24,045 nucleotides of DNA. Source: a virus. Of this stretch, positions 15,502 to 20,221 are shown piece after piece. Positions within the stretch are counted from its first letter, which is position 1; the number at the start of each line of letters is the position of its first letter. A program made the translations under genes and the position numbers. Below the pieces are notes generated by a model. The model was not told where the DNA came from. It searched no databases and saw only the letters and a list, made by a program, of their open reading frames with translations. Where the stretch lies: positions 1-24,045 of IMG/VR virus record IMGVR_UViG_3300046009_000079; one strand, 5' to 3'.

Positions 15502-16984
<1,483 letters not shown>

Positions 16985-17294: not shown

Positions 17295-17558
17295 CTACCA
17301 TTTAACCTTGTTGGCCCAATACGCTGCAGACATCTTGCCTTTGGCAATGTTCTTTGCGTGGCGAGCTTTGAATGATGCTTGTCTTGCTGTTGGCTGTCTA
17401 TCGCCAGTAACGCCTTGTTGTCCAAAGCGGATTGTTTTTACGTTATCGCCTTCTTTAGCAACGACAACGTGTGACTTTGTTGGATGGCTTGGTGTGCGCT
17501 TTGGCTTGTTAAAGCCTGCTACTCCTGCTCGCTCTAAGCGAGGATCTTTCTTAGCCAT
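17295..17558 (-). CDS. Small basic phage protein with conserved SAAYWANKVKW end
   Basis: The 87-residue product is rich in Lys and Arg, with GFNKPKRTPSHPTKSHVVVA, IRFGQQGV and FKARHAKNIAKGKMSAAYWANKVKW at the C-terminus. This ending is a hallmark of a widespread small phage protein (I recall DUF6321, not verified here). No enzymatic motif is visible. It could bind DNA or be a minor capsid component. It abuts the next small basic gene, with ATG 17558 one base from the preceding stop. Confidence 0.75.
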   Translation of the reverse strand: MAKKDPRLERAGVAGFNKPKRTPSHPTKSHVVVAKEGDNVKTIRFGQQGVTGDRQPTARQASFKARHAKNIAKGKMSAAYWANKVKW

Positions 17559-17720
17559 TTACTTCTTCTTTCTTGCGGCTGCTGCGTTATCTACTAGGTT
17601 TGGATAAGGACGACCTGCTGCCTTGGCCTTAGCCTTGGCTGCAGTCTTCTGAGCAGGAGTGAGTTTGGTAGATGTCTTCTTTGGGTTCTTCTTATCCCAA
17701 AATGCTTTCTTAGCTTTCAT
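17559..17720 (-). CDS. Tiny basic Lys/Ala-rich protein (53 residues)
   Basis: ATG 17720 follows directly after TAG of the preceding gene. The product has FWDKKNPKKTSTKLTPAQKT, a run of Ala/Lys, then GRPYPNLVDNAAA and a KKK end. The PAQK-Ala/Lys run and GRPYPNLVDN segment recur in small proteins of many environmental phages. The role is unknown; the charge suggests nucleic acid contact. Confidence 0.7.
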   Translation of the reverse strand: MKAKKAFWDKKNPKKTSTKLTPAQKTAAKAKAKAAGRPYPNLVDNAAAARKKK

Positions 17721-17882
17721 CTACTTCTTCTTTTTCTTCTTGCTCATACCAGCTTCGCTCAACGCAATAGCGACAGCCTGCTTCTTGCTCTTCACGACTG
17801 GGCCTTTCTTGGACCCAGAGCGGAGGGTGCCAGCCTTGAACTCTGACATTACCTTCTTGACTTTTGCTGGCTTCTTCTTCAT
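17721..17882 (-). CDS. DUF6496-type tiny basic protein (53 residues)
   Basis: ATG 17882 overlaps the stop of the Cys-rich peptide gene (TAATG). After a Lys-rich start the product reads VMSEFKAGTLRSGSKKGPVV, then KSKKQAVAIALSEAG, and ends in six Lys. The VMxEFKxGxLxSG and KxxKQAxAIALSEAG pattern is the one I know as DUF6496, found in phages and bacteria with unknown function. The very high positive charge suggests DNA or RNA binding. Confidence 0.75.
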   Translation of the reverse strand: MKKKPAKVKKVMSEFKAGTLRSGSKKGPVVKSKKQAVAIALSEAGMSKKKKKK

Positions 17883-17977
17883 TACTTCTTCCTAGCATTC
17901 TTACAGGTTGCACAGCTGCACTTGCAGCCCTTTTGTGGCTTGCCTGCCTTGCACTTACATCCGCACTTGGCGCACAT
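17882..17977 (-). CDS. 31-residue metallothionein-like Cys-rich peptide
   Basis: ATG 17977 overlaps the upstream stop and its own TAA overlaps the next ATG (TAATG at both ends). Eight of 31 residues are Cys in a mirror-symmetric pattern, CxxCxCxC, eight residues, CxCxCxxC, with all other residues mostly Lys, Gly and Ala. There are no aromatic residues. This composition is that of metallothionein-type metal-thiolate peptides. A pair of minimal zinc knuckles is another reading. No family is recognised, and translation is supported by the two overlaps. Confidence 0.6.
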   Translation of the reverse strand: MCAKCGCKCKAGKPQKGCKCSCATCKNARKK

Positions 17978-18138
17978 TACTTCTTACCGCCAACACCAGT
18001 AGAGATTGATTCGTAGGTCATATACTTGCGGTTAGATGCAAACTGCTTGTCTGCTAGAGGATAGGCTTCTACTTCTTCAACGTTCTTGACATATTCAAAC
18101 GCTTTGCCGTTTTCTTTAGCGTATGCTTCTTCTTTCAT
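17977..18138 (-). CDS. Small acidic/polar protein (53 residues)
   Basis: The frame from ATG 18138 to TAA 17979-17977 starts three bases after the preceding stop region, with AAGGAG upstream. The product is helical and polar (EEAYAKENGKAFEYVKNVEEVEAYP) and ends NRKYMTYESISTGVGGKK. I do not recognise it. The regular spacing and overlap with the Cys-rich gene support it being real. Confidence 0.6.
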   Translation of the reverse strand: MKEEAYAKENGKAFEYVKNVEEVEAYPLADKQFASNRKYMTYESISTGVGGKK

Positions 18139-18141
18139 TTC

Positions 18142-18408
18142 TTACTCCTTGTATGTTAGGTTGATTCCATCAAAGGCCTTGCCGCCTTCATTACTGATTC
18201 TTACTGCTGCATCAATATCAGGCTGTCTCGTTGAACGAGGTTCAATGCCTTGTCGAACTGCGTCATAGTACGCACCCAACTCTTTATCGTGAGCCTTGGC
18301 AGTCGGAATACCACGACTGCTAGCCGCTCCTGAACTCATCTCTAAGCCCATAATCTTGCAACCAAAGCAATTCTCTACATCTTCAGGATGTACTTCTCTA
18401 TGCTTCAT
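18142..18408 (-). CDS. Small late protein with MKHREVHPE start (88 residues)
   Basis: ATG 18408 overlaps the upstream TAA. The product opens KHREVHPEDVENCFGCKI, a short segment with CxxC that recurs in small late proteins of actinobacterial phages in my memory, then a polar helical part (AKAHDKELGAYYDAVRQG) and EPRSTRQPDIDAAVRISNEGG. The single CxxC with a His nearby could bind zinc. The function is unknown; its place after the capsid gene suggests a minor head protein. Confidence 0.65.
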   Translation of the reverse strand: MKHREVHPEDVENCFGCKIMGLEMSSGAASSRGIPTAKAHDKELGAYYDAVRQGIEPRSTRQPDIDAAVRISNEGGKAFDGINLTYKE

Positions 18409-18731
18409 TAAGCCACCGGTGTTAAGTATTCGCTGTAGCCTGCATCTATTAGAATCTGTGCCTCAGCATCCGATAGTGTGTAGGCGTGACCACCAAGGTA
18501 ATAGGTGTCAGCGTTTGCTAAATCATCCTGATATGGAGTTCTGCTTTCAGTAACGGTTGTACCGTTTACTAGAAGTGTTACACCACGTGGTACATCTGTA
18601 AGGAAAGATGGCACCGCTCCAGTATAAGAACCACCAGCAAGTGGTCGTCCTGCTAAACGTGCATAGGTATTGAAGTATGTGCTATCGCACCAGGTTTCAT
18701 TCTCCCAAGGAGTTACCAAGTTGTACGGCAT
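18408..18731 (-). CDS. Post-capsid structural protein (107 residues)
   Basis: This is the first gene after the capsid gene and hairpin; AAAGGAAG precedes ATG 18731. The product is beta-rich (GVTLLVNGTTVTESRTPYQDDLANADTYYLGGHAYTLS shortened here to key parts LLVNGTTVTES and YYLGGHAYTLS), with a final helix AEAQILIDAGYSEYLT. A small protein next to a major capsid protein is often a head-decoration or head-completion protein. No specific family is recognised. Confidence 0.65.
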   Translation of the reverse strand: MPYNLVTPWENETWCDSTYFNTYARLAGRPLAGGSYTGAVPSFLTDVPRGVTLLVNGTTVTESRTPYQDDLANADTYYLGGHAYTLSDAEAQILIDAGYSEYLTPVA

Positions 18732-18787: not shown

Positions 18788-19717
18788 TTAGTTGATTGAA
18801 GCTGCTGACTCAATACGATAGAGTGCTGCTTCACGGAGGCGTGCAAAGCCACCCATATAGTACCAACCGATGGTACGGAAGCGACGGAGTGCGTCAATCT
18901 CTGGACCGATAACGGTTGAGATGTCCTGACCCTGTGCTTCAGCGAGTGCTTCACGACCAGCGATAACTGCCTTGTAGACGTTAACTGATCCTGAGTTCGC
19001 AGCGAATGGCACACGAGGTGTCTCTACTACGAATGCACCTTCGATTACGCCGACTGCGCCAGCCACGAATGGTGTGCGGTCTACGTACTGGGTGAGTGCC
19101 TGGAAGCCGCCTGTGCCTGATTCAGCACGGAGGTCAGCTGCCTGACGTGGGTGGAGGTATGCAGCGTACAAGTCATTGATACGTGGCACAGCCTTGTTTG
19201 TGCGAAGCTGTGTTACAGCCTCACGGATATCAGCAACAGCCATTGTCATTGAAGATGTGATGGTGTTGGTTGTGGTTGCAGTTCCTGCGTAGATGACGTT
19301 TGAGCCACCTGTAAGAACTCCAGCAACTACAGCGTCAATAGAGTCTGCTGAGTTGTAGGCGATGATGTCAGCAAGTGCTGAGTCTACATCGTTGAAAGAA
19401 GTTAGGTTTAGCTTCTTTGTTGTTGTTACGGCTGAGCCGTATTCGTTGAGTGTTACTGTAACCTGATTTGGGTTACCAAGTGCAATGCTTGATACATCTG
19501 ATGTTTCTGTCAATGTAGATGTAGCCTGAGCTAGATCTGAATAGATTGAGAATACAACTGATGAACCTGGCATTGCCTGTTGTACTGGCTTGACATCTGC
19601 AATCGCACGCATTACCGGGATGCTACGGAGAGCCATACGAACATATTGATCGTATGCGGTTCTGACGAGGTTGCTAATGTCCGATGTTCCTGTTAAGGAA
19701 CCTGCTGGAATTGCCAT
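18788..19717 (-). CDS. Major capsid protein, N4-gp56 family
   Basis: The 309-residue product shows the N4-gp56-type capsid layout. An N-terminal arm (SNLVRTAYDQYVRMALRSIP) is followed by a beta-rich P-domain (SVVFSIYSDLAQATSTLTET, VTVTLNEYGSAVTTTKKLNL), AVADIREAVTQLRTNKAVP, YAAYLHPRQAADLRAESG, FVAGAVGVIEGAFVVETPRVP, and the closing AVIAGREALAEAQG, IDALRRFRTIGWYYMGGFARL. LHPRQAADL and the final GWYYMGGFARL are strong markers. It forms the capsid shell with an HK97-like fold. AAAGG lies before ATG 19717, a scaffold-like gene precedes it, and a hairpin follows it. Confidence 0.9.
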   Translation of the reverse strand: MAIPAGSLTGTSDISNLVRTAYDQYVRMALRSIPVMRAIADVKPVQQAMPGSSVVFSIYSDLAQATSTLTETSDVSSIALGNPNQVTVTLNEYGSAVTTTKKLNLTSFNDVDSALADIIAYNSADSIDAVVAGVLTGGSNVIYAGTATTTNTITSSMTMAVADIREAVTQLRTNKAVPRINDLYAAYLHPRQAADLRAESGTGGFQALTQYVDRTPFVAGAVGVIEGAFVVETPRVPFAANSGSVNVYKAVIAGREALAEAQGQDISTVIGPEIDALRRFRTIGWYYMGGFARLREAALYRIESAASIN

Positions 19718-19747: not shown

Positions 19748-20221
19748 TTAAAGTCCAGACTGACGAATGATGTCGTCCAACTCTTCTTTGCTATTTGCAT
19801 TCATAAGACGGGACATCACGTCTGCGCCTCGTTCTGGTGACAGTCCTGCATCAGCAGTACCAGTCATCTTCTTGTATGCAGCAATATCAGCTGGGTCAAC
19901 ATTCGTAGTTTGGTTTTGGCCAAGGTCAATACCGAATACATCGGCATAGTCCTCAAGCCACTTAGACACAGACTCCTCAGTTGGGTCAATGTCCTGAGGT
20001 ATAAACGAAGCTATCTTCGCATTTACCCCGCGACGTTCGAGGGCATCCTTGATGGATCTCTCGCGCTGGGCCTTGCTTAGTCCATCGAACTTATCGCGGA
20101 GTTCCGCTAGTTCTTTGTCCTTCTGCTTGGCTGCTTTGCGTAGTTGTTTAACAAGGTCATTCGATTGTGTATCACCAGTAGTGATATCGTCGTCTTCATC
20201 CTCGTAGTCGTAATTGGACAT
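19748..20221 (-). CDS. Capsid scaffold/assembly protein
   Basis: This 157-residue protein has a very acidic N-terminus (YDYEDEDDDITTGD), a coiled-coil helix at about 21-52 (LVKQLRKAAKQKDKELAELR), a middle part with WLEDYADVFGIDL, and an end rich in polar helices (SRLMNANSKEELDDIIRQSGL shown here only in part: NSKEELDDIIRQ). It lies 30 bases upstream of the capsid gene, as phage scaffolds do. It presumably guides capsid shell assembly and leaves the head afterwards. ATG 20221 is preceded by GGAGAAGG. No protease motif is seen. Confidence 0.75.
   Translation of the reverse strand: MSNYDYEDEDDDITTGDTQSNDLVKQLRKAAKQKDKELAELRDKFDGLSKAQRERSIKDALERRGVNAKIASFIPQDIDPTEESVSKWLEDYADVFGIDLGQNQTTNVDPADIAAYKKMTGTADAGLSPERGADVMSRLMNANSKEELDDIIRQSGL

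Follow-up and report, generated by a model that had tools for sequence, protein, structure and literature searches.

An apparently undescribed family of strictly conserved, metallothionein-like phage peptides with a HypB-type start

Why would a phage encode, among its late head genes, a 31-residue peptide in which eight cysteines are arranged as a mirror image? The peptide, MCAKCGCKCKAGKPQKGCKCSCATCKNARKK, which we call Cys8, is encoded at 17977..17882 of the window, that is, of the whole 24,045-nucleotide stretch of IMG/VR virus record IMGVR_UViG_3300046009_000079 analysed here. The original prediction had placed a 31-residue reading frame at 17882-17977 without naming a strand; these coordinates hold, and the gene lies on the minus strand, the plus strand of the same interval encoding a different peptide. 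The cysteines occupy positions 2, 5, 7, 9, 18, 20, 22 and 25, so translation bears out the predicted order CxxCxCxC-x8-CxCxCxxC, its mirror symmetry and the lack of aromatic residues. An eight-cysteine DNA pattern, with up to three mismatches, has a single match in the window and no match in 100 shuffles of it, which excludes chance for Cys8 in the window.

The eight-cysteine gene and its neighbours

The gene sits in a tight minus-strand run that comprises, in order of transcription, the genes for the probable scaffold, the capsid protein, a 107-residue, an 88-residue and a 53-residue protein, Cys8, DUF6496, phrog_34011 and phrog_7595. The features are as follows.

17882..17977, minus: eight-cysteine peptide gene (reading frame, cysteine pattern and family scans)
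17957..17977, minus: codons of the N-terminal MCAKCGC (Cys2, Cys5, Cys7), with the spacing of the E. coli HypB nickel site (sequence)
17977..18138, minus: upstream coupled reading frame, 53 residues, ending in YMTYESISTGVGGKK; TAATG joint; kept before the slot in capsid-gene relatives
17721..17882, minus: downstream coupled reading frame, 53 residues, Lys-rich, DUF6496 (PF20106, E = 9e-10)
17559..17720, minus: Lys-rich 53-residue protein, phrog_34011 (PHROG match)
17295..17558, minus: basic 87-residue protein, phrog_7595, of the same cassette (PHROG match)
18142..18408, minus: 88-residue protein (phrog_24600 / phrog_10483), between capsid gene and cassette
18408..18731, minus: 107-residue protein (phrog_8987), directly after the capsid gene
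18788..19717, minus: major capsid protein (phrog_1357, E = 1e-75; PF13252)
19748..20221, minus: probable scaffolding protein (resembles the annotated scaffolding gene of Streptomyces phage Dennebes)

At both ends of Cys8 the junction reads TAATG, as predicted, with one base shared with the reading frame at 18138..17977 and one with that at 17882..17721. The capsid gene (19717..18788) precedes Cys8 by 0.8-0.9 kb on the same strand, in agreement with the predicted late-operon position after the capsid region. The products of DUF6496, phrog_34011 and phrog_7595 resemble Cys8 in belonging to the Lys-rich cassette after the head genes; they lack the cysteine pattern and are not homologous to it. 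Elsewhere in the window, a WhiB-like regulator (PF02467, E = 9e-14; 2447-2713, minus) suggests an actinobacterial host, and the late region encodes a 380-residue protein with collagen-like Gly-x-y repeats (15505-16647, minus), similar repeats being found in locus L006.

Family extent, conservation and genomic setting

The original prediction had proposed a database search with the cysteine pattern, and such searches of IMG/VR yielded a family of at least 137 distinct loci (pooled) in which the eight cysteines are strictly conserved. A first pattern scan, in which the middle spacer was free to vary from 5 to 15 residues, returned at least 120 places, nearly all of the same design and with a spacer of exactly eight residues; poly-cysteine low-complexity matches, such as those at L049 and L110, were rejected as family members. 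IMG/VR contigs are redundant (overlapping or near-identical), so raw locus counts are not independent, and counts of distinct sequences were used where possible. To avoid selecting for cysteines, a second scan used the pattern GKPxxKGCKC, which fixes Cys18 and Cys20 only. All eight cysteines occur in exact spacing at 102 of its 104 places; of the remaining two, one runs off a contig end and one is unrelated DNA.

Across 112 distinct 26-codon Cys8 sequences, which encode 83 distinct peptides, synonymous divergence is near saturation (pS 0.83) versus a pN of 0.18. TGC and TGT are used interchangeably for the cysteines; Gly17 never varies, and Lys19, Lys16 and Pro14 almost never do. Between locus L091 and the window, 11 of 13.7 synonymous sites differ with zero amino-acid changes. 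At the level of sequence variation, these comparisons show Cys8 to be a real gene under strong purifying selection, with the eight cysteines and their spacing fixed. The window peptide is 26% cysteine, has a net charge of +10 and contains no histidine, aspartate or glutamate. Stand-alone members measure 28-36 residues, about a quarter of them cysteine, in CxC and CxxC motifs; Phe, Trp, Tyr and His are absent from all 77 short members, and every one of the 77 has a net charge of +8 to +11, with higher values in fusions.

The family appears to be virus-only. One exact form of the cysteine pattern, scanned against the genomes of 84,980 prokaryote species, hit only a (CAA)n repeat, which we discarded as an artefact. 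The peptide and its 84- and 275-residue fused forms gave no tblastn match in 50,697 phage records, a search whose low-complexity filter may hide short members, so that absence from cultured phages is not proven. In Pfam, PHROG, NCBIfam and PDB sequence searches, at lax thresholds too, no meaningful relative was found, and three Cys8 variants matched no PHROGs v4 profile at E <= 10; the original prediction had likewise known of no phage family of this design. Taken at sequence level, Cys8 thus appears to be a previously undescribed, strictly conserved phage family of a metallothionein-like kind, with a HypB-type start and confined to phages. An AlphaFold model of Cys8 is compact and metal-free, with one C-terminal helix (mean pLDDT 86, pTM 0.48), and Foldseek found no meaningful structural match to it in the PDB; containing no metals and lacking such a match, the model adds little.

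At least three phage backgrounds carry Cys8 next to head or head-tail genes. In background A, made up of viruses whose capsid protein shares about 45% identity with those of Streptomyces phages, it follows the capsid gene. Background B consists of contractile-tailed phages in which Cys8 lies about 1.5-3 kb ahead of the sheath and tube genes and whose sheath is closest to that of Streptomyces phage BRock. In background C, Cys8 is fused as the head of longer proteins, several of which are encoded between capsid-region genes and a connector-like gene. The phrog_34011 family is the direct upstream neighbour of Cys8 in about half of the loci. A Lys-rich domain, KKQDAKVMKGM..., stands next to Cys8 as a protein of its own in 59 of 122 loci and forms part of the Cys8 protein in fused members of 80-96 residues; the long fused forms carry glycine-rich hydrophobic stretches. 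Dps/ferritin-like genes (PF00210) stand in the late cassette at L105 (484-1405 after the Cys8 start), L011, L018, L026, L027, L096, L116 and L228.

The original prediction had put forward conservation at the same place as a check, to be failed by a broken frame or by loss of the cysteines in relatives that share the neighbours. It withstands this check with two qualifications, the differing content of the slot and a frameshifted copy. Of the 63 capsid-gene relatives whose sequence extends far enough, 11 have Cys8 intact there, all with eight cysteines; most relatives, some with a capsid protein 98-99% identical, carry other tiny genes in the slot. In background A, loci without Cys8 hold DUF6496, phrog_34011, AWQRKEG and KEFPYTAKG genes in varying combinations, and by its gene content the slot is a swappable cassette of tiny Lys-rich genes. 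The only broken copy in the MCAKCGC scan is a frameshifted Cys8 of identical sequence at L140 and L241, which runs into the downstream DUF6496 gene (from 7746 at L140 and from 10018 at L241, both plus strand) and reflects either natural decay or a sequencing error. Cys8 is dispensable, judging from the close capsid-gene relatives that lack it and from the frameshifted copies.

Possible metal sites and competing readings

At 92 of the 102 places in the GKPxxKGCKC set, methionine directly precedes Cys2; the other 10 (L255-L260, L262, L264, L273 and L277) have ATT or ATC at that codon. In one ATT/ATC group, the gene immediately upstream encodes an HNH endonuclease, as though its insertion had changed the start codon. 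The position of Cys2 after the start also holds where the Cys8 domain heads proteins of 69-352 residues, and this N-terminal lock suggests that a free N-terminus is important. Gly6 is present in 100 of the 112 Cys8 sequences, giving the HypB-type MCxxCGC with Cys2, Cys5 and Cys7 after the start. In E. coli HypB, nickel is bound by Cys2, Cys5, Cys7 and the N-terminal amine as Ni(S)3NH2, with a sub-picomolar Kd (PMC7055735). The CXXCGC site of HypB and Cys8 share MCxxCGC at residues 1-7 with the same three cysteines, always N-terminally; unlike HypB, Cys8 lacks a GTPase domain (31-36 residues when stand-alone) and has an extra Cys9 and a mirrored second half. The NCBIfam HypB_prefix model NF053667 matches a sister phage peptide, MCATCGCGKKTAKK..., at E = 2e-4, below the model cut-off, and neither it nor NF053668 matches Cys8 itself.

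Cys8 also has the sequence features of the metallothionein class, being small, with 20-30% cysteine in CxC and CxxC motifs and few or no aromatics. The bacterial metallothioneins SmtA, PmtA and PflQ2 MT are likewise small and Cys-rich with CxC and CxxC motifs, and metal-thiolate clusters would be expected. Cys8 is about half as long as SmtA, and three members gave no Pfam match at E <= 10 to the SmtA family (PF02069) and none in NCBIfam. PflQ2 MT carries a Cys9His cluster (PMC7387436), whereas Cys8 has eight cysteines in mirror order and no histidine. The original epithet, metallothionein-like, fits the cysteine composition, and no homology to a known metallothionein was found. The first half is a HypB-type CxxCGC and not a classic metallothionein motif; as a label for the probable chemistry, the epithet seems reasonable. 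Our literature search found no paper on phage-encoded metallothioneins. A mention in a paper on phage Ab31 proved to be a gene-list entry from a bacterial genome analysis and was set aside.

We put at roughly 0.5 the probability that Cys8 is a cationic metal-thiolate mini-protein, specific to viruses and produced alongside the head proteins; the identity of the metal, presence in the virion and function we infer. Met-Cys is a normal substrate of methionine aminopeptidase, and removal of the initiator methionine would leave an N-terminal cysteine. The amine and the thiolates of CxxCGCxC would then probably take up a single metal ion of soft or borderline character (Zn, Ni or Cu(I)) in the manner of the HypB Ni(S)3(NH2) site and the mirrored CxCxCxxC half would bind a second, the peptide folding around its metals with GKPxKG as linker. 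More tentatively, and at somewhat less than even odds, the Lys-rich surface and tail may tether the peptide, once folded around its metals, to DNA or the head interior, where it would act in head assembly or ride in the virion as a metal-stapled accessory peptide. A gene may lie next to head genes without its product entering the virion, and a conserved core of cysteines only also fits disulfides or a redox role. If true, this would be the first well-supported phage-coded metallothionein-like peptide family without a match in the searched prokaryote genomes, and the strict conservation makes a metal-thiolate role in late phage development testable with a 31-residue synthetic peptide.

Under the main rival reading, which we consider unlikely, Cys8 would be a phage metallothionein proper, a soluble buffer of metals or redox state that remains in the infected cell at late stages and stays out of the virion; it would catch Zn, Cu or Cd released from host proteins, or quench oxidants, so that assembly and lysis proceed. 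The short stand-alone form, with its share of cysteines in CxC and CxxC motifs and its lack of aromatics, is what such a buffer would look like, and eight loci have ferritin/Dps-like genes (PF00210, phrog_3636) no more than about 1 kb from Cys8. However, when Dps loci were collected independently, only three of 80 had Cys8 within 2.5 kb; the Dps link is therefore weak, and we dropped it as a functional argument. Rigid cysteine spacing and the N-terminal lock likewise exceed the needs of a loose buffer, and fusion to long late proteins is better explained by a fixed site on a structure.

The charge of the peptide admits another reading, a protamine-like or disulfide-locked DNA or capsid peptide whose lysines bind packaged DNA and whose eight cysteines form particle disulfides, with no metal sites. 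A net charge of +10 with zero acidic residues, Lys-rich neighbours and fusions, and the head-gene location all suit it. We nevertheless regard it as improbable: CxC pairs are poor disulfide partners for each other, which counts against it, as do the match of the first half to the known tight metal site of HypB and a pattern kept to the residue at 102 places. The exact HypB motif at the exact position could instead mark a delivery or chaperone head, which would pass Ni or Zn to a phage, host or companion virion protein as HypB does to hydrogenase, and MCxxCGC is indeed a portable head on several tails, EF-hand-like ones included. This is very improbable in our estimate, as no nickel enzyme or GTPase domain is seen and HypB_prefix_1 has no match to Cys8 and only a match below its cut-off to the sister peptide.

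A wider set of MCxxCGC mini-proteins

Matches in the MCAKCGC scan are complete Cys8 sequences or different tiny proteins in which the head alone is retained. A second MCxxC-type reading frame lies within 1.5 kb in 62 of the 137 distinct Cys8 loci, always on the same strand. In a set of 43 tail-sheath loci chosen with no regard to cysteines, at least one MCxxCGC reading frame precedes the sheath in 26, and the opposite strand has none in any of the 43. Over the combined 1.33 Mb of tail-sheath and capsid loci, MCxxCGC starts number 58 on the gene strand, zero on the other strand and zero in a reversed-sequence control. A different MCxxCGC peptide, mostly in the same slot, is found in 13 capsid-gene loci without an intact Cys8 (one being the frameshifted L140), and never together with Cys8 in capsid-gene relatives. 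The slot is held in this way at L160, L165, L169, L178, L182, L189, L192, L193, L197, L198 and L200, where the peptides, such as MCAVCGCGYATYDDIETGAP..., have an acidic tail. Some MCxxCGC tails contain an EF-hand-like loop, LDVDKDGKLEGSDF, which in one member matches Dockerin_1 at E = 8e-4; others carry the Lys-rich domain KKQDAKVMKGM....

From these sequences, Cys8 is best read as belonging to a larger group of late phage peptides headed by MCxxCGC, within which it is the most elaborate. We suggest, with less than even confidence, a virus-only metal-binding mini-protein system, in which a portable MCxxCGC head with Lys-rich or EF-hand-like tails would be exchanged as a cassette beside head genes, Cys8 having two mirrored four-cysteine sites and the product serving as a metal-stapled virion or assembly component. 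The environmental phages that carry it apparently include several of actinobacteria, and the common head offers a handle on unannotated tiny late genes around their head-tail modules. Tiny MCxxCGC proteins with an EF-hand/dockerin-like calcium loop also lie upstream of the tail sheath at L020, L021, L062, L380, L381, L391 and L423, and proteins of this EF-hand/dockerin-like kind (LDVDKDGKLEGSDFAALR, LDMNKNGKLDGADF) either adjoin Cys8 or occupy its slot.
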